A stretch of 40,181 nucleotides of DNA from assembly GCA_021846505.1 (NCBI GenBank), contig JAJZWV010000035.1, forward strand, positions 1 to 40,181. The letters are read 5' to 3'. The notes beneath the pieces were generated by a model that had not been told where the DNA came from, did no database searches, and worked only from the letters and a program-made list of their open reading frames with translations. Made by a program: the position numbers and the translations under genes. The stretch comes from Bacillota bacterium. GTDB taxonomy: Bacteria; Bacillota; Sulfobacillia; Sulfobacillales; JAIMBI01. This document shows positions 2,673 through 40,181 of the stretch, in pieces. The first letter of the stretch is position 1; each line of letters starts with the position of its first letter.

Positions 2673-3797
2673 CTAGCCGGCGCTGGCGCTCGCCTGGGGA
2701 GCAGGGAGCAGGGCGCCGACCGATTCAGGGGCCACCCGCGCGGCGACCCAGGCCGCGGGCAGCGCCTCCCCGTATGAGTCAAACCGAGGAGGTCCGCCTT
2801 CTGTCAGTTCCCTGACCACAGCTTGGGCTGCCGCTATCTGACCGTCCCGATGCAGGCACAGGAGGCGTTCCGCTTGGATGGCCGCCCAATCGCCGCTGCC
2901 GGGCTCCGCGGCGGACAGGGCTTGGCCCAGCCACTGCAGGGCCGCCGCCAGGTCATCCGCCTCCCTGTGCATGGCTCCCACGGCGTAACGGACCCGGGCC
3001 AGCAGGGGAGCGGGCGCTTCGGCGGCGAAGGCCGTGGCCGCTTCGAGCAGGTGCGGTTCCCCCAGCTCCCAGCGGCATACCAGCACGCCCCACCGGGGAT
3101 AAGCCACGCGCTCATCCCCCTGCAGGTTGCCGATTGCGCGCTCGTAATGCGTCTGGGCTTCCGCATAGGCCTCGCGGTCCAGCAGCAAATTGCCGGCCGC
3201 CCAGTGGATGTAGCCTTGAAGTCGGGCGTCGCCCGCTTCGGCCGCAGCCGCCAGGGCGGTCTGGAGCACCGTCAGGGCGGCCTCGAGCCTTCCACAGCGC
3301 GCCAGCGCCAATCCATAGTCATACTCCGCCCGGGCCCGCACGACCGCGCCACCGTGGCCGCGCGCATGGCGCTCCATGGCCTCAAAGTGGCGACATGCGC
3401 CGCCAAAATCTCCGAGAAGATATGCCAGTCGCCCTCGCAGGCGATAAAGGTCGCCGTCATACCGCCCGCGATAGACCGACCGGTTGACCTGCTCCGCGCG
3501 TGCCAGCACCAAGCGCGCCGCATCGCCATCTCCCTGGCTCATCAGGTGGTCACGCATCCCCAGCAAACTGGCGCCGCGCGGCTCCCCATCCATCCACCCG
3601 CCCACCGCTTCGGGTCGGCTGACGGCCAGTGCATCGGTGAGGCGGAGCCACAGGGCCGGCTTGGCGGTCAGCGCTCCGCGTTCCAGGCGGCTGATGGTGG
3701 ATCGGGCCACGCCGACCCGCCGCGCCAAGGCAAACTGCGACAGGCCCTGACGGACGCGCCACTGCAGCAGGTGGGACGCCGCGGAACGCTCCTCCAT
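2673..3797 (-). CDS. XRE-family regulator with C-terminal TPR repeats (RRNPP-like architecture)
   Basis: A 374-residue cytoplasmic regulator. Residues about 10-58 form an XRE/Cro helix-turn-helix (VRQGLSQFALARRVGVARSTISRLERG). The rest is alpha-helical with Ala/Leu-rich TPR-like pairs, for example near AEYDYGLALARCGRLEAALTVLQTAL and IHWAAGNLLLDREAYAEAQTHYERAI. An N-terminal XRE domain fused to TPRs is the layout of RRNPP receptors (PlcR, Rgg-like and relatives) that bind short re-imported peptides. The ATG at 3797 has GGAGG upstream. It is divergent from a small signal-peptide-bearing gene at 3920, and the shared intergenic region holds repeats suited to operators. Other XRE-TPR proteins are not peptide sensors, so the quorum-sensing role is inference; the domain call is firm. 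Confidence 0.85.
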   Translation of the reverse strand: MEERSAASHLLQWRVRQGLSQFALARRVGVARSTISRLERGALTAKPALWLRLTDALAVSRPEAVGGWMDGEPRGASLLGMRDHLMSQGDGDAARLVLARAEQVNRSVYRGRYDGDLYRLRGRLAYLLGDFGGACRHFEAMERHARGHGGAVVRARAEYDYGLALARCGRLEAALTVLQTALAAAAEAGDARLQGYIHWAAGNLLLDREAYAEAQTHYERAIGNLQGDERVAYPRWGVLVCRWELGEPHLLEAATAFAAEAPAPLLARVRYAVGAMHREADDLAAALQWLGQALSAAEPGSGDWAAIQAERLLCLHRDGQIAAAQAVVRELTEGGPPRFDSYGEALPAAWVAARVAPESVGALLPAPQASASAG

Positions 3798-3830
3798 GCC
3801 TTTCCGTCCTCCGTGCCCACAAAACCGCCC

Positions 3831-27031: not shown

Positions 27032-27372
27032 CCTCCTTCCACCCCTTCTCCCGGCCTTTCGTCCGGACCCTTGCCAGCATCGGCGACCTTCTTCCCGTCA
27101 GACGAGGTGGCGGCGCCCCCTGTGACATCGCCCCCACGAGGCGGCTTGGGCCAGCGTGGCGGCTGGCAGGGCGGCGGGCGCGCCGCCACCCCTGCTCGAC
27201 ACCCGGCTCTCGGCATGGTAGCCTCACGAGAGAGCGCGGTGGAGCTCGCGCGGGCGCGTCAAGCGCAGACAAGTGGCCACACGGCCCAATGGCTCCTGGG
27301 GGGTGCATGACCTGCCCGGGGGCTTTTGTGATTTGCGAGAAGCGCAGCCCCTGGCAAAAGGGGGACGATGGG
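27032..27372. other. Intergenic region between divergent epimerase and MutS-like genes
   Basis: No gene is supported here. It should contain the divergent promoters of the epimerase-like gene and the MutS-like operon. Several GC-rich inverted stretches are present (for example GGCGGCGGGCGCGCCGCC near 27170-27187), but no clear -35/-10 pair. Confidence 0.45.
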
Positions 27373-28908
27373 GTGCTGAGCATTTTGGACCGCGACCCGT
27401 CGGCTGGCGGCGAGGAGGTAGCCGAACCGCCCTATTTCCGCGATTTGCTGCTGGACCGGGTGGTCGGCGCCATCACCGCCGGCCGGGACGCCTTTCACTT
27501 GCAGGCGTACTTCTATCGTCCGCTTGGGTCGGCACCAGCCGTATTGTATCGGCAAGCGGTGTTCCAAGACCTTGAGCGACTGCCAGTCCGCACGGCTGCG
27601 GAGCGCTTTGCAGCCGCGATGGCAGCGTCCCGCCAGCATCTTGCGCAGGCCGAAGCCCTGCGCGACGAACTCCAGCAGCACCGCTGGTTCCTGGAGGGCA
27701 CGTTGGTGCGGGGCCAAGCCATCGCGGCCCTCGCTCGCGACTGGGCCGCCGCGAACCTCCGGTCGGCGGCGCTGGGATCCGCCCAAGCCTTTCTGAACCA
27801 GCTAGCCCAAAGCCCGGCGGTTCAGACCATGCAGGCTGAAGCGGCCCAGCTGGTCCAGGATTTGGCGTCGGTGTACTATGACGTGCACATTCAAGGCAGC
27901 CGCGTGGCGGTGTTGCCGCACCAAGGGGACAAGGACTTTGGTGCGGCGATCGAGGCGGCCTTCGCCCGATTCCGCCAGGGTCCGGTGGAGCCTTATGCCT
28001 TCCGGAGCCAGCGAGATCCAGAGCTCAACCACGTAGAGGCCCAGATTCTTCACCTGGTCGCCCAGCAGCACACCGAGCTGTTTTCGCGCCTGGAGCAGTT
28101 TCACAGCACGTATGCCACGCTGTGGCCGCCCGACGTCGCGCAGCTGGACCGGGAGCTGCAGTGGTATCTCGCGTGGCGCGAGTACGCGGAGTCGCTAGCC
28201 ACCGCCGGCTTGCCAATCTGCTTTCCGGAGGTGCACCGCGCCCCGGGCCCGATGCAAATCCGCGAAGCCTTTCACCCGGCGCTCCTGGACGTCATGCGGC
28301 CGCCCGACATCGTGTGCAACAGCCTCGACATCACGGAGCCGGAGTGCATCGCGGTGGTGTCGGGACCGAACCAGGGCGGCAAGACGACGTTCGCGCGGCT
28401 ATTTGCCACCGTGCACTACTTGGGACAGCTGGGGGGGCCCATACCAGCCGCTGCCGCCCGGCTCACCCTGTTTGACCACATCTTCACACACTTCCCGCGT
28501 GAGGAGCGGGCCGGCGCCCCATCCAGCCACCTGGAAGAGGAGCTTCGGCGAATGCTGGACATTCTCGGCAGCGCAACGCGCGAAAGCCTGGTGGTCTTAA
28601 ACGAGCCGTTTGGATCCACCACCGCGCAGGACGCCCGCTGGCTGGGCCAACGCGTGCTGGCCCGCCTCGCCGAGATTGGCGCGCGGACCGTCTGCGTCAC
28701 ATTTTTGGACGAGTGGTCGCGGCTGTCGGATGCCACGGTGAGCCTGGTCGCGGTGGCTCGCTCCGCGCGCCGCGGCGAGCCCGCCGAGCGCACCTTTCGC
28801 ATTGTGCGGCGGCCCGCAGACGGCCGAGCGCACGCGGTCGCCCTCGCAGAGCGCCACGGGCTGGGCTATGAGCAGGTGCGCGAGCAGCTGGCTGGCGGCG
28901 GGTCGTGA
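27373..28908 (+). CDS. MutS-like ATPase A (no mismatch-recognition domain)
   Basis: A 511-residue protein with a helical N-terminal lever-like region and a C-terminal MutS-type ABC ATPase domain. Walker A is SGPNQGGKTTF (about residues 331-340). The Walker B region reads SLVVLNEPFGSTT, with Asn in place of the usual Asp before the catalytic Glu. A MutS signature-like stretch precedes it (APSSHLEEELRRMLDIL). The mismatch-reading domain I and the clamp of MutS are absent. GTG 27373 has AAGGGGGA seven bases upstream and fits the family start; an ATG at 27307 would add 22 residues. The stop overlaps the start of a second MutS-like gene, suggesting a heterodimer. The function is unknown. Confidence 0.85.
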   Translation: MLSILDRDPSAGGEEVAEPPYFRDLLLDRVVGAITAGRDAFHLQAYFYRPLGSAPAVLYRQAVFQDLERLPVRTAAERFAAAMAASRQHLAQAEALRDELQQHRWFLEGTLVRGQAIAALARDWAAANLRSAALGSAQAFLNQLAQSPAVQTMQAEAAQLVQDLASVYYDVHIQGSRVAVLPHQGDKDFGAAIEAAFARFRQGPVEPYAFRSQRDPELNHVEAQILHLVAQQHTELFSRLEQFHSTYATLWPPDVAQLDRELQWYLAWREYAESLATAGLPICFPEVHRAPGPMQIREAFHPALLDVMRPPDIVCNSLDITEPECIAVVSGPNQGGKTTFARLFATVHYLGQLGGPIPAAAARLTLFDHIFTHFPREERAGAPSSHLEEELRRMLDILGSATRESLVVLNEPFGSTTAQDARWLGQRVLARLAEIGARTVCVTFLDEWSRLSDATVSLVAVARSARRGEPAERTFRIVRRPADGRAHAVALAERHGLGYEQVREQLAGGGS

Positions 28909-30569
28909 ATGCGCACTTACTGTCTGCCGACCGGGACTTTGACCTGGCGGCTCCGCTGCCGTGGGGGCACGAGGCCCTGGTGCAGGATCTCCAACTCGAG
29001 CCGCTCCTGGAGGTGATGGCTTCCGGCGATCCCCTCCTCGCGCGGGCCGCGCGCCAAGGGCTTTTGGGCGCGGCCGCCGCGGCAGACCCCGCCACCATTC
29101 GCTACCGCCAGCGGGCCTGGGCCGACTGCTGCGCCGAGCCGGCCGCCGTCCAAAAGTGGCACGCGCTGGCCCGCGACGGCGCTCAAGCGGCGCGGCGCGA
29201 GCGCGCCGGCCTCTACACCCGGCGAGCTGACTCTATTGCGCACGCCTCCCGGCGCGCGTTGTCCATCCTGGTGGCTACGCTCGCCGAAATCCGGTCGGTG
29301 GCGGATGCCCATCCGAGCCAGTTCACCTCGCCGGCGTTTGGCGGGCTGGCCAACCGTTTGCAGGAGGATCTCAGCGATGACTATTTGGCGGACGTCACTG
29401 GTCTGCTGCACGCCTTGCAATTTCCCGGCGGAGTCACCATCAGCGCGGGGCTAGGCCCCGGCTTGCAGAGCCGCGAGCCCGTGCTGCGCGGGCCCCGCCC
29501 CCCGATGCACGGCTGGGCGCTGCGGCGCCTGCGCCGCCGGCAGGCCGCGTCCAGCTTCGTGCTGCATCCCCGCGACGATGCGGGGCACCGGATGTTGGGC
29601 GAGTGGCAAAACCGGGGACTCGAAGGCACCGCGCGCGCGCTGGCTCAATCCGTGGATCACATCATCGGGTTCCTGCAGACGCTCGAGGCCGAAACCGGGT
29701 TTTACCTGGCAGCCTTAAACCTCCAGCGCGCACTCGCGGAAAAAGGCCCGCTCTCCATCCCAGAGCCCCGGCCGCTCGGCACGTCCCATCTAGCAGCCCG
29801 GGGGGTATGGGATCCATCGCTGGCTCTGCAGCAAGCGGGCTCGCTGGTGCCCAACTCCGTGCCGGCCGGCACCGCCAACCCCATCGTCATAACGGGCGCG
29901 AACCGCGGTGGAAAATCCACGCTGCTCCGCGCGCTGGGCATTTGCCAGCTCCTAATGCAAGCGGGCTTGTTCGTGCCGGCAGAGCACTTCAGCGCCAGTG
30001 TTGCCATCGGCATCTTGACCCACTTCAAGCGCGAAGAGGACCGAGCGCTGGCCCGCGGGAAGCTGGACGAAGAGCTGGCCCGCCTGCGGGACATTCTCGA
30101 TCACCTGCGCCCACACGCGCTCGTGCTGGCCAACGAGCCGATGCAATCGACCAATGAAGCTGAAGGGGCCGCCATCGGCGGCCAGCTGTTTCGAGCCCTG
30201 GTGGATTCCAAGGTTCGCGTGCTGCTGGTGACGCATCTGCACGATTTGGCCGTTTCCCTCACCAAAGATTGCCCGAGCGCCCTGTCTTTGCGTGCCGGCC
30301 CCCCCGATGGCCCCGACGGGCCGTTTGTCATCCAGCCAGGGGACCCCAAGCCCACCGCGTACGCCGAGGGCCTCTACCGGGCCCTCTTGGGCAATGGGGA
30401 CGGACGCGGGGACGGAGATGTCCTTCAGACGAGCGCGCCGCAGCCGGACATGCTGGGCCAAGATTTCGCTGCGGCCGCAGCCCCTGAGACCCGCACGAGC
30501 GCAGGCTCCAACATCCAGCATGCTCCTGGCTCGCTGGACCGCGCTCCAATCTGGCATGAAGCGGAGTGA
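28905..30569 (+). CDS. MutS-like ATPase B (no mismatch-recognition domain)
   Basis: A 554-residue paralogue of the preceding gene. It starts NAHLLSADRDFDL, has a long helical region, and carries Walker A TGANRGGKSTLLRAL (about residue 330). A signature-like KLDEELARLRDIL precedes Walker B ALVLANEPMQSTN, again with N-E-P instead of D-E. An H-loop-like VLLVTHLHDLA follows. The C-terminal 65 residues are low-complexity and Gly/Asp/Ala-rich. The GTG start overlaps the stop of gene A (GTGA) and its own stop overlaps the following MFS gene in the same way. Such paired MutS-family proteins outside mismatch repair are poorly understood. Confidence 0.85.
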   Translation: MNAHLLSADRDFDLAAPLPWGHEALVQDLQLEPLLEVMASGDPLLARAARQGLLGAAAAADPATIRYRQRAWADCCAEPAAVQKWHALARDGAQAARRERAGLYTRRADSIAHASRRALSILVATLAEIRSVADAHPSQFTSPAFGGLANRLQEDLSDDYLADVTGLLHALQFPGGVTISAGLGPGLQSREPVLRGPRPPMHGWALRRLRRRQAASSFVLHPRDDAGHRMLGEWQNRGLEGTARALAQSVDHIIGFLQTLEAETGFYLAALNLQRALAEKGPLSIPEPRPLGTSHLAARGVWDPSLALQQAGSLVPNSVPAGTANPIVITGANRGGKSTLLRALGICQLLMQAGLFVPAEHFSASVAIGILTHFKREEDRALARGKLDEELARLRDILDHLRPHALVLANEPMQSTNEAEGAAIGGQLFRALVDSKVRVLLVTHLHDLAVSLTKDCPSALSLRAGPPDGPDGPFVIQPGDPKPTAYAEGLYRALLGNGDGRGDGDVLQTSAPQPDMLGQDFAAAAAPETRTSAGSNIQHAPGSLDRAPIWHEAE

Positions 30570-35587: not shown

Positions 35588-35786
35588 GTCCCCTGCCCCC
35601 CCGCCACGTTCCGCCGCGAGACCCCTGCCTTCTCACCGCGTCGCTCCCTGCACGCTCGTGATGCATCCACTTCGACTGCTCCCCCAAAAATCCTGCCGGG
35701 CGTGTCAAAGCGAGGGGCCGCACGCCCCTGCTATGGGCTTCCCGACGGGCTATAAGCGAGCCGCCGCGTGATGGACCGCCAAACCG

Positions 35787-37037
35787 TCACTCCGCCGACG
35801 GCACACCCTGCGCGCGCAACCCTCTAAATCCAACCGCCGTGGCTGCGACCACCAAGCCGGCGGCCAAAAACACCAAGTGCAGCGGCACCAGGCTGGCCAC
35901 CACGCCGACCACCACTGCGCCCACGGGACTCGTAATATTGGTCAAGGCGCTCAACGTACCCACGGCGCGCCCGAGTACCTCTTCCGGAACGGTATCGAGA
36001 ATAACTGCGGTAAGGGTGGCACTGAGCACGCCATTGATAACCCCCCAACCCGCCATGATAACAAGATCGGGCCACAGCACCGGCACCAACGATAGTGCCG
36101 CCATGAACGCTCCCCACAGCACCAGACACCAAATCGCTACGCGGACAACCGCCATCCGCTCTAGCACCCGCGCGCTCATGGCAGACCCCACGACGGCGCC
36201 GATCGCCCCCGCGAATACAAACATGCCGTAGTCGAGTGCGGTGCCATGAAGGACCTGCTTGACCCAGGCCACGTCCATGACAGTAATGCTGACACTCGCC
36301 AATCCGGTGACCATGCCCATAGGTACCAGCCGCCGCAGGAATGGGTCTCCCCACAGCGGGCGCTGGCCTTGGATAAATTCGTGCCAGAAAGCCTTCCAGG
36401 GGTTGGTGTCCACCTCCCTGTCCGGAGGTGGCGCGGGCGCGGGACGCAGGCGGACCATCCCTAGTGAAAAGACAGAGACCGCAAAGGACAGGGCATTGAT
36501 AAGAAAGAGACTGGCCGGACCCAGCGCCCCCATTAGAACACCCCCGAGTGCAGGGGCCACTAGGTCGGCAGACTCGCGCGATGAGGCCTGCAGGCTGTTG
36601 GCCGCATGCAGATCTCCGCGATCCACCACCTGAGGCAAGATGGCAAATAGCGCGGGGGAGAAGCACACCCCCGCCAGGCCCGCGACCGCCACCAGGATCA
36701 CCAGGAGCGGCACCGTGAGGTGACCGCTAACGGCCAAGGCAAATAGCGCGACAGCGACGATCATGCGGATAGCGTCGGCGACCATCATCGTACGCCGCTT
36801 GTTCCAGCGATCAACATATACACCCGAAAATAAAGTGAACATACCCGCCAGCATGCCAACACCTTGCACCAAGCCCAAGTCAACCCGACTATTAGTGAGG
36901 GTCAGCACCACCCAACTTAGCGCGATGGCGTTCATGCCGTTGCCCACCGACGAGACCCACTGCCCGGCGGCTAGAATCCCGATCGAGGGCTTACGGCGCA
37001 CCAGGTGGGCGAGGCTGCTATCTGACTGTGGGGTCAT
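35787..37037 (-). CDS. MFS transporter, presumed lanthipeptide exporter
   Basis: A 416-residue major facilitator of the EntS/MFS_3 type, with about twelve hydrophobic segments. Landmarks are ILAAGQWVSSVGNGMNAIALSWVVL in helix 1, the motif-A loop GVYVDRWNKRRTMMVADAIR, and SLQASSRESADLVAPALGG near helix 5. Its ATG shares one base with the LanKC stop (TAATG), so it is translationally coupled to the lanthipeptide synthetase. It is the only transporter in the operon and so is the natural candidate for export of, or immunity to, the peptide. Most lanthipeptide systems use ABC transporters. The role is inferred from position; the family call is firm. Confidence 0.88.
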   Translation of the reverse strand: MTPQSDSSLAHLVRRKPSIGILAAGQWVSSVGNGMNAIALSWVVLTLTNSRVDLGLVQGVGMLAGMFTLFSGVYVDRWNKRRTMMVADAIRMIVAVALFALAVSGHLTVPLLVILVAVAGLAGVCFSPALFAILPQVVDRGDLHAANSLQASSRESADLVAPALGGVLMGALGPASLFLINALSFAVSVFSLGMVRLRPAPAPPPDREVDTNPWKAFWHEFIQGQRPLWGDPFLRRLVPMGMVTGLASVSITVMDVAWVKQVLHGTALDYGMFVFAGAIGAVVGSAMSARVLERMAVVRVAIWCLVLWGAFMAALSLVPVLWPDLVIMAGWGVINGVLSATLTAVILDTVPEEVLGRAVGTLSALTNITSPVGAVVVGVVASLVPLHLVFLAAGLVVAATAVGFRGLRAQGVPSAE

Positions 37038-39727
37038 TACACAAACCTCTGCGCGTCATCCAGGATCTCGTCAGGAATAAAATTGAAATTATCGGCACCG
37101 GTCGCCACGCGGTGCAAGAACAGGGCAATTCCGGCCGTCCCGGTGCCAAAATCTCCGCTCTCCTTATGCATCAAATCGCCGGGATACCGAGTGCCCGCGG
37201 GAGAAGTCATTCCCAGCGCCATCAACGAGCGGGCACACTCTTCAGCCGCCGCCGCGCATAGCAAGCTCTTCTCGTCGATATATTGTTCGCAATCCAGCAA
37301 AAAATTGCCGAGTCCGGCCAGTCCGGAAAACAATCCCGGATTGGCGGTCAGGACCCGGCGGGTATCTTGTATCATAAGAGGCAGATGCCCGCGCCACGCT
37401 CGCGCGTACCCCGCATGCACAAAACGAACCAGCGCCGTGCCGACGCCAGCTGTGCCTGCATACCAGTACGGCTCGCGCAAGCGAGTATCCCCGGCGTCCT
37501 CCGGGAAGCTGATGGCCTCGGGACCGCGGATAGCGCACTGCAGGTCGTGACTCAGCCCGGCCTCCGCCGCGGCGACAAAATCCGGGCGGCGGCACGCTAT
37601 CCCCGCATATAGCAGAAATAGCGCGATGCCGCTGGCCCCACGGGCATAGCCGACCCGAGCCGCCTTCTCGCCCTCGCGCCGCCAACAGATAACCGATCCC
37701 TCGCGCTGGCCGGTGGATAATAACCAGGTCCCCAACGCGGCCGCTTTGGTACGCATGGGCTCTTGCCCCGTGACCCGCCACAGATGCAGCAGGGATAGGC
37801 CAACGCCCGCCACACCGTAAAAGACATCGGGCGACGCAAAAAGCAGCTCGTGGCGCCATGCGCGCTCGATAAGGTCGCAGGCATCATCGACATAGCCGCC
37901 GTCGGCTAACACCCACGCCATACCCGCCAGTCCGGTATAAAGCCCTGGCGGTACCCGGGCGGTCGTGGCACTGTCCAGCCTCCTCAGGACCCAATCGCGC
38001 AAGGGCGGGGGCGGGGATCCTCCCGTGCGCTGCACGGCATACATCACACCCAAGGCGCCGTGCGCCACGGAAAGCGGGTGCCCCGGCTGGAAATGCGCCG
38101 GAATGAGTCGGCGTGACGAGTAATCGAGAGAATCCAATAGGCCCGCAATGGCCGACGCAGCCCCCTCCCCGGGATCCGCGCCGCGATACGACGGGCGCCG
38201 GACGATCGGGCTGTCCGCCGCCGACAACACCAACAGGGCATGATCCAGTCCAACGGTCTCGGCGCCGAAGCACAGCGCCTCCAAGGCGGAGACCATCGCA
38301 TCCGGGATATCAATGCGCGAAGCCACGCCGACCAACCAGGCTCGCGCCGCTTGTGGGTCCAGCGCGGCAAACTGCGGCTGAAATCCGCACAGCCAGAGGA
38401 GCAAATTCGCCAGGGCAAATCCCTCGTCAGGAACCGCTGACGGGCGATCAAACCCCGGCGTGGCCATCCGACGTCCCGTGGGCTGTCTCGGATCAACAGC
38501 CGATTCCAAGTCCACAAACAACGGCCGCCCATCGGCTTGCAAAAGGATGTTGCTCGGCGACAGGTCCCCCAGCCGCCACCCAGACCGCTGGACCTCTTGG
38601 AGCGCCCCGCCAATCGTGAGTACCACTTGGCGCACGGCTGCGTAATACTCCGCCAGCGCCCTCGGCGTCGCCGTCTCCAACTGGGCGATGGGATGCCGCA
38701 CCGCCGGCACTGCGTCCAACGGCGTGCCCTCCACCCATTGAACAGCCAAGAATTCATGCTCCCACTGGCGAAAATACTCCACGGGCCTCGCCACATAACC
38801 CGTGTCAGCCAGCGCTTGCGCTACGTCCCAGGCGCGCCGCAGACGACTCAGGGCATCTTCAGCCGCGCCGCCCATGGCAACAAACGGCCGAGCTTCTTTG
38901 ATGGCTACCAGGTCACCCGTCCTCTGGTCCCGCGCACGGTACACCCCGCCCGCGTTAGAAAACTGCACCGCCCCCAGCACTTCATAGCGACTATGCAGCA
39001 AGTGTCGGGGGCCGGCGTGCAACTGCGGCCCGACGAACGGAGCCACCGGGTCGGGCGCCCAAGGTCGACTGACAAAGCGCGGCAACCGCTCATCGGGAAC
39101 CAGCTGACCATCTGGACGAACTAAGTACGGAATGGCATCGCCTAGCACGTCCGTTATAGCCAGAGACCGAATGCCGCCGTAGCGGTAATACAGTACCGAG
39201 GAATCTTTGTACCGGCGGTCGGACAGCACGAACGGGCCGTGCAACCCATCCGTCGCAGATTTCAGCCGATCCAACAACTTCCGTAAATGATCAGTATCTG
39301 TTGGATAGACGGTTAAGAACTTTCCCGCGGAACCTCTGTTTTGGTTCTTGGAGTTCATCCACTCGGCCATATATTTATCGCAGGCGAACTTGAAAGGCGC
39401 ATCCATTTCAAAGCATACAAGCGCCGCGCGTTTCAACACTTCTCCAGCATCGGATGGCGATGCCGACAGGTGAATCTTCCAGCCTTGAACAGGCAAGCTC
39501 TGTTGATAGGGAATGCAATGGTACCAAGGGGCCTCTAAGATCACTCGCCAAGATGGCGGGGCCGCCCCGGAGACCATGGTAAAGAAGCCGTCGTCGCGAG
39601 GGATGTACTCATCGGGGAAGACGTAGCGTCGCTCGGCGACGCTCAGTTCTAGCAAACTCGCCACATCCTGGCGATCTGCCCGACTACGCCCTCCATATAC
39701 GCCCACTCCGGGTCCCCCTATTCCCAC
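37037..39727 (-). CDS. Class III lanthipeptide synthetase (LanKC)
   Basis: An 896-residue three-domain enzyme that dehydrates Ser/Thr and forms (methyl)lanthionine or labionin rings. Residues about 30-235 are the phosphoSer lyase domain (QGWKIHLSA, AGKFLTVYPTD, GPFVLSDRRYKDSSVLYYRYGG). Residues about 245-450 are a Ser/Thr kinase domain with VAIKEAR (Lys 277), the catalytic loop RLGDLSPSNIL (Asp 388, Asn 393) and LFVDLES. The rest is a LanC-like barrel (GLYTGLAGMAW, DVFYGVAGVGLSLL, GYARGASGIALFLLY, PYWYAGTAGVGTALV, LFSGLAGLGNFL). The Cys-Cys-His zinc ligands are absent, which marks class III, not class IV. The start is unsettled: GTG 39727, GTG 39706 (AGGGGG upstream) or GTG 39664 (GGAGG further upstream). 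Confidence 0.93.
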   Translation of the reverse strand: MGIGGPGVGVYGGRSRADRQDVASLLELSVAERRYVFPDEYIPRDDGFFTMVSGAAPPSWRVILEAPWYHCIPYQQSLPVQGWKIHLSASPSDAGEVLKRAALVCFEMDAPFKFACDKYMAEWMNSKNQNRGSAGKFLTVYPTDTDHLRKLLDRLKSATDGLHGPFVLSDRRYKDSSVLYYRYGGIRSLAITDVLGDAIPYLVRPDGQLVPDERLPRFVSRPWAPDPVAPFVGPQLHAGPRHLLHSRYEVLGAVQFSNAGGVYRARDQRTGDLVAIKEARPFVAMGGAAEDALSRLRRAWDVAQALADTGYVARPVEYFRQWEHEFLAVQWVEGTPLDAVPAVRHPIAQLETATPRALAEYYAAVRQVVLTIGGALQEVQRSGWRLGDLSPSNILLQADGRPLFVDLESAVDPRQPTGRRMATPGFDRPSAVPDEGFALANLLLWLCGFQPQFAALDPQAARAWLVGVASRIDIPDAMVSALEALCFGAETVGLDHALLVLSAADSPIVRRPSYRGADPGEGAASAIAGLLDSLDYSSRRLIPAHFQPGHPLSVAHGALGVMYAVQRTGGSPPPPLRDWVLRRLDSATTARVPPGLYTGLAGMAWVLADGGYVDDACDLIERAWRHELLFASPDVFYGVAGVGLSLLHLWRVTGQEPMRTKAAALGTWLLSTGQREGSVICWRREGEKAARVGYARGASGIALFLLYAGIACRRPDFVAAAEAGLSHDLQCAIRGPEAISFPEDAGDTRLREPYWYAGTAGVGTALVRFVHAGYARAWRGHLPLMIQDTRRVLTANPGLFSGLAGLGNFLLDCEQYIDEKSLLCAAAAEECARSLMALGMTSPAGTRYPGDLMHKESGDFGTGTAGIALFLHRVATGADNFNFIPDEILDDAQRFV

Positions 39728-39766: not shown

Positions 39767-39868
39767 CTATGACACGGAGCAGTTGATGCTGAACGAGCTG
39801 GCAAACTTCTCCCGAAGAGTCGAGCCAACCTCTTCTTCCATGACCTGTAGTTCCAACACCGCGTTCAC
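39767..39868 (-). CDS. Class III lanthipeptide precursor peptide (33 residues)
   Basis: A 33-codon gene, too short for routine gene calling, with an excellent ribosome binding site (GGGAGGTGAT) seven bases before GTG 39868, and its stop 39 bases before the LanKC start. The leader has VLELQ at residues 4-8, the ILELQ-type recognition motif of class III leaders, followed by acidic VMEEE. The C-terminus reads SSFSINCSVS. Ser24, Ser27 and Cys30 are spaced S-x2-S-x2-C, the labionin pattern; SapB has a similar SSLSITTC segment. Ser25, Ser31 and Ser33 could also be dehydrated. An in-frame ATG at 39889 would add seven residues but lies before the ribosome binding site. No protease gene is present, so leader removal must be provided elsewhere. 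Confidence 0.85.
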   Translation of the reverse strand: MNAVLELQVMEEEVGSTLREKFASSFSINCSVS

Positions 39869-39947
39869 GCCATCACCTCCCTTCTTCATGATATTCGGAT
39901 GGATCCCATGGCCTCCCTTGACAAGGATCTTCCCCGAACGTATCCAC

Positions 39948-39975: not shown

Positions 39976-40053
39976 GCCCGTGGCGGGGCGCATGTACGCC
40001 ACGCGGGCGGTGGCCGTCCCGTAGCATCCGCATGCGCGATATTTCATGACCTA

Positions 40054-40074
40054 GCGTCCTGAGTTGATAATTCG
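40054..40074 (+). repeat. Left terminal inverted repeat of a second IS630-type element
   Basis: GCGTCCTGAGTTG and the following eight bases match the inverted repeat at 104-124 (minus strand) at 18 of 21 positions. The repeat is preceded by TA at 40052-40053, the expected target dinucleotide. The transposase start codon lies 24 bases inside. Confidence 0.78.
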
Positions 40075-40097
40075 AGATCTATATGGTATACTCGGGT

Positions 40098-40181
40098 ATG
40101 TCTACTACACCTCCGACGAAGTCGCGACGAAGGGGGCGCCCGTTGGCGCCGCTGACCCTGAGCCCCGACGAACGCACCACC
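40098..40181 (+). CDS. IS630-family transposase, N-terminal fragment (cut by window end)
   Basis: From ATG 40098 the frame is open to the window end (28 residues): MSTTPPTKSRRRGRP, then LAPLTLSPDERTT. A basic start followed by L.L...ER..L is the usual beginning of IS630-type transposases, just before their helix-turn-helix. There is no strong ribosome binding site. The element has the same orientation as the copy whose C-terminus opens the window. Confidence 0.72.
   Translation, partial: MSTTPPTKSRRRGRPLAPLTLSPDERTT

Follow-up and report, generated by a model that had tools for sequence, protein, structure and literature searches.

A 33-residue open reading frame near the end of the window (the whole stretch of 40,181 nucleotides that was analysed) almost certainly encodes a class III lanthipeptide precursor that would be processed by the LanKC synthetase encoded next to it. 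The core sequence is new and the type of cluster is already well known. The locus adds a minimal class III cassette, with one precursor, one predicted ring and one MFS exporter, to a Bacillota lineage. The features referred to in the text are as follows:

35588-35786, no strand: junction, in which synteny and DNA similarity with the congeneric genomes G001 and G002 end at 35619 (blastn)
35787-37037, minus strand: MFS exporter of 416 aa (PF05977/PF07690, TIGR00900), whose start codon overlaps the LanKC stop
37037-39727, minus strand: LanKC class III lanthionine synthetase, 896 aa counted from the first GTG (NF038151, PF25816, PF05147)
39767-39868, minus strand: predicted LanA precursor gene of a class III lanthipeptide (translation, NF038154 match, motif set)
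39779-39799, minus strand: core ring motif S24-S-F-S27-I-N-C30 (S-x2-S-x2-C), predicted labionin or lanthionine
39845-39859, minus strand: leader recognition motif V4-L5-E6-L7-Q8, read from the sequence; most related LanKC loci whose precursor can be recognised have the same type
39872-39881, minus strand: Shine-Dalgarno sequence GGGAGGTGAT, with its GGAGG core 7 nt before the precursor GTG
40050-40181, no strand: repeat copy, putative insertion-sequence end, which bounds the cassette and terminates the contig

The precursor gene

The frame runs on the minus strand from a GTG at 39868-39866 to a TAG at 39769-39767 and encodes 33 aa (MNAVLELQVMEEEVGSTLREKFASSFSINCSVS), while the plus-strand translation of the same interval is interrupted by stops. 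The first-pass annotation had described a GTG-started mini-gene with a near-perfect ribosome binding site, and such a gene does exist behind GGGAGGTGAT. Starting at the in-frame ATG at 39889 would lengthen the peptide to 40 aa, but this ATG lies upstream of the Shine-Dalgarno sequence, so that the GTG at 39868 is preferred as the start. The VLELQ leader motif was found exactly as claimed, at residues 4 to 8, and the SSFSINC segment proved correct in its S24-x2-S27-x2-C30 pattern and wrong in its placement at the C-terminus, since Cys30, the sole cysteine and the fourth residue from the end, is followed by the three-residue tail SVS. The Ser/Ser/Cys arrangement agrees, as had been stated, with the SxxSx(2-5)C rule published for class III cores (PMC11251773). 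Untagged, unmodified and with Met1 retained, the peptide has a calculated monoisotopic mass of 3633.74 Da.

Profile searches place the peptide in the same class. It reaches 23.4 bits with the NCBIfam class III lanthipeptide model NF038154.3, barely above the cut-off of 22, and stays below the cut-offs of NF038159 (24.5 bits, cut-off 30) and of the SapB/AmfS model NF033212 (13.5 bits, cut-off 25). As the LanKC also exceeds the cut-off of its own model, NF038151, the earlier reading of a class III precursor with an LxLQ leader adjoining a LanKC holds, and annotation software based on NCBIfam would probably detect the precursor. When the whole genome was searched with NF038154 in six frames, the sole match up to E=10 was the precursor locus itself, at 17.7 bits, a score probably lowered because the open frame extends upstream. 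In a complementary test, a small ORF had to combine a Shine-Dalgarno sequence with [VILMF]xLQ close to its beginning and with [ST]xx[ST]x(2-5)C. The window contains a single such ORF, and 100 shuffles of its entire sequence that preserved dinucleotides contain none; when the Shine-Dalgarno requirement was dropped, the shuffles gave 0.08 per 40 kb. Plasmids yielded no match when the precursor was the only query.

The LanKC synthetase

Directly downstream of the mini-gene, as first reported, lies a complete LanKC gene, at a distance of 40-60 nt. The GTG at 39706, with AGGGGG upstream, is more likely to be the true start. The enzyme scores 646 bits with NF038151 (cut-off 575) versus 496 bits with the class IV (LanL) model NF038150, below its cut-off of 650. 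Its RamC_N (PF25816) and LANC_like (PF05147) domains are above their cut-offs, and the Pfam Pkinase model by itself gives 14.3 bits against a cut-off of 31.7.

The lyase residues K84, H86, K113, K127, K136, D170, R182 and R214, whose equivalence was read off an alignment to ThurKC, match all eight residues named for that enzyme (PMC10604976). Together with the kinase residues K277, D388, N393 and D406, the lyase catalytic residues are invariant in an alignment of the LanKC with three relatives. In the cyclase, neither Cys nor His occupies the sites of the NisC zinc ligands, as in other class III cyclases (PMC10604976).

In sequence, the enzyme is distant from the characterised LanKCs. A search of genome contigs with the LanKC as a single sequence returned no relative, and an alignment query returned 246, of which 80 LanKC loci were kept and fetched and to which plasmid and genome loci were added. 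No close orthologue was found among them, the best full-length identity being about 35%, and a maximum-likelihood tree built from 46 LanKCs shows the enzyme as a long lone branch without a supported sister.

Proposed pathway and type of ring

From the precursor, enzyme, exporter, gene order, catalytic residues and motifs observed, a pathway can be proposed whose chemistry, ring type and leader proteolysis are modelled on established class III biosynthesis (PMC10604976, PMC11251773, PMC7268733). The VLELQ leader helix would dock on the LanKC, the kinase domain would add phosphate to core serines and the lyase domain would eliminate it to leave dehydroalanines. The zinc-free cyclase domain could then catalyse Michael addition of the only thiol, that of Cys30, to one dehydroalanine, giving a lanthionine, or a labionin from Ser24, Ser27 and Cys30 if the resulting enolate attacks a second dehydroalanine. 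The leader would be removed by a protease encoded elsewhere, and the MFS protein would export the product or protect the producer. None of the analyses made here points to the surfactant-like or antimicrobial activity suggested at first, or to a signalling role.

Within the same pathway, a simple lanthionine between Cys30 and Ser24 or another core serine, with some serines left as dehydroalanine, has somewhat less than an even chance. Depending on the peptide, class III Ser/Ser/Cys motifs yield either lanthionine or labionin (PMC7268733, PMC11251773), so that the sequence does not decide; against the simple ring, the motif conforms to the labionin rule, and labionin is what ThurKC makes, the synthetase of solved structure nearest in sequence. 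The precursor would in this regard be a small and tractable substrate for asking which of the two products S-x2-S-x2-C yields. We consider it unlikely that the LanKC joins Cys30, Ser24 and Ser27 as a labionin with a two-residue inner ring or as an uncharacterised crosslink, in a product whose role would be new to the lineage; an uncommon crosslink is thinkable because the enzyme is a lone deep branch. Crosslinks of the Noursin type, through His, were discarded as the precursor contains no His.

Layout and surroundings of the cassette

The genes are tightly spaced, with overlapping LanKC and MFS genes, and the MFS protein likely serves export or self-protection. The genes that follow it, sbcD- and sbcC-like, are unrelated. 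A scan of the minus strand upstream of the precursor found no sigma-70-like promoter. In the spacer between precursor and LanKC no terminator was found and folding was no better than that of shuffles (z +1.2), for which reasons no attenuator is claimed. Some 300 nt upstream of where the precursor begins the contig comes to its end, and further cassette genes may therefore be missing.

No protease gene was found within the cassette, and class III clusters commonly lack one of their own. The genome has a side-by-side pair of M16 peptidases on contig C96, and unclustered M16B pairs that remove class III leaders have been described in Firmicutes (PMC8960859). This pair is a lead only, because Bacillus subtilis and other control genomes match the family too.

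Elsewhere in the window, the region of about 6-25 kb carries purR, ispE-like, glmU-like, prs, pth, metS and tatD genes. This gene set, together with the phylum-mate G218, whose locus is the Firmicutes MAG UBA5286, suggests that the host belongs to Bacillota. Two neighbouring genes at 27289-30569, which overlap, encode proteins of 539 and 554 aa that contain MutS domain V and are similar to MutS ATPases and to those of the KamC type (lysine aminomutase reactivase).

Origin of the cassette

The cassette was probably gained by horizontal acquisition. This reading is based on its lower GC content (62%, versus about 69% over the window's initial 34 kb), on the absence of a complete LanKC from the 41 other genomes of the host's order, and on the break of synteny at 35619. 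GC3 in the cassette is likewise lower, at 0.69-0.73, than the 0.81-0.85 of four other genes in the window, and among the 42 genomes of the order that of the window alone has a LanKC that exceeds the model cut-off. A clean insertion into the locus of the congeners was considered and set aside, since the gene that lies beyond sbcD in G001 and G002 sits here inside contig C34; the locus is thus rearranged and only a break of synteny is claimed. At the other end, the repeat at 40050-40181 has at least 10 further copies in the genome with 98-99% identity, mostly at contig ends; the repeat holds an ORF start (MSTTPPTKSRRRGRPLAPLTLSPDERTT) that suggests an insertion sequence breaking the assembly.

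A LanKC without the N-terminal lyase region was also observed in the same order, behind a transposase-like ORF (locus L104, G038:C156, 2090-4120); it is followed by an MFS gene with 27% identity to that of the window, and no precursor was recognised there. That truncated gene, the only other LanKC of the order, would fit a view of the present cassette as a decaying remnant with no product, as would its probable acquisition, its AT-richer composition and the adjoining repeat. We hold this to be quite improbable, given that the three genes are intact and that catalytic residues and ribosome binding site are retained.

The proximity of the contig end raises another doubt, namely that the LanKC operon leader contains this ORF by chance and that the true precursor lies beyond the end of the contig. 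About 180 nt separate the precursor start from the beginning of the repeat, with which the contig stops, and relatives in Deinococcus have five or six tandem precursors. Such a chance frame is nevertheless very improbable in view of the NF038154 match, with no second one anywhere in the genome, and of the perfect Shine-Dalgarno sequence combined with LxLQ and SxxSxxC, seen in none of the 100 shuffles. A lipolanthine/avionin pathway, in which the C-terminal Cys of a single-Cys class III peptide is oxidatively decarboxylated, would agree with the single Cys and the LanKC and can practically be discounted, because Cys30 is not terminal but followed by SVS, and no LanD flavoprotein decarboxylase was found among the scanned main ORFs of the window.

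Related loci

The 33-residue frame is thus best regarded as a true class III precursor, and its features can be compared with those of related loci, where recognisable precursors mostly carry an N-terminal xxVLxLQ or xLLDLQ leader. Spacing before the Cys was tallied at 35 loci, hand-picked without near-duplicates, including that of the window and allowing Ser or Thr at the first position; some loci had more than one spacing and some none. A spacing of two residues between the second Ser and the Cys was seen at 13 loci, one of three residues at 16 and one of four at 4. S-x2-S-x2-C occurs too in Deinococcus sp. QL22 and in Firmicutes bacterium UBA5286 (phylum-mate G218). Loss of the pattern in homologous loci, named at the outset as the observation that would count against the claim, was not what we saw: xxVLxLQ is kept and S-x2-S-x2-C often is, in homologues that are distant.

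The traits presented at first as unusual turned out to be ordinary. A two-residue spacing is shared by those 13 of 35 loci with a recognisable precursor, and precursors as short as 33 aa are already annotated on a Deinococcus plasmid. These have one Cys as well, and 179 single-cysteine lanthipeptides have been predicted (PMC11251773), so that a single ring is no exception either. Nor is there support for regarding such peptides as alien to bacteria of this kind, since Firmicutes/Bacillota are among the known sources of class III lanthipeptides (PMC8960859, PMC10604976). Elsewhere, 2377 class III clusters were reported and 55% of class III precursors were unannotated (PMC7268733).

Several further loci deserve mention in their own right. 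Streptomyces precursors of 30-31 aa (L052, L053, L064, L075, L084; about 3078-3468) have the Cys before the serines (GNCISVLSVVE), an order that fits the 'reverse labionin' idea of PMC11251773. LanKC loci of WOR-3 (Caldifarciminota; L044, 4162-4842) come with precursors that are unusual, with abundant S/T, Y and H and a single Cys close to the C-terminus. In a phylum-mate (L106, G322:C55, 2967-5159), the LanKC is split by an in-frame TGA, with an ABC transporter alongside, and is possibly a pseudogene.

Comparison with known systems

The closest plasmid relative is found on plasmid P4 of Deinococcus gobiensis I-0 (WP_014686943 and WP_193352043), with a LanKC about 35% identical. Its precursors (MKRVLQLQTLQASNPAPAEWSTVSNHCGSHQLA), of 33 aa with one Cys, are annotated as class III lanthipeptides and share with that of the window the xxVLxLQ leader, the S-x2-S-x2-C pattern and the same NCBIfam model. 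They differ in the core motif, which is WSTVSNHC instead of SSFSINC, and in their setting, since P4 has six tandem precursors, an ABC transporter and a LuxR-type regulator, whereas the window has one precursor and an MFS exporter. The six precursor genes lie upstream of the D. gobiensis LanKC at 2930-3801 of locus L020, and the PLSDB table has only two of them.

A second likeness is to a Candidatus Bipolaricaulota precursor of 34 aa (MKVLSLQRMTVRQDPGFAAASWTSSFSACCSKAM, locus L034), whose SSFSxxCS core resembles SSFSINCS and whose LanKC is 33% identical to that of the window. This precursor differs in having a CC pair and in its best model, NF038160. The near-identical locus L018 has an ABC transporter ORF.

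Among characterised systems, ThurA/ThurKC of Bacillus thuringiensis (PMC10604976; PDB 8SAM/8SAO/8SAP) shares the LanKC architecture, the eight named lyase residues and the metal-free cyclase, although the cyclase half is only weakly similar; ThurA cores undergo 11 dehydrations, and the comparison made here concerns the synthetase. The SapB/AmfS-type morphogens of Streptomyces share with the window the class III route and an LxLQ-type leader, but they have two rings of the Sx2Sx3C type, and the precursor described here falls below the cut-off of their model.
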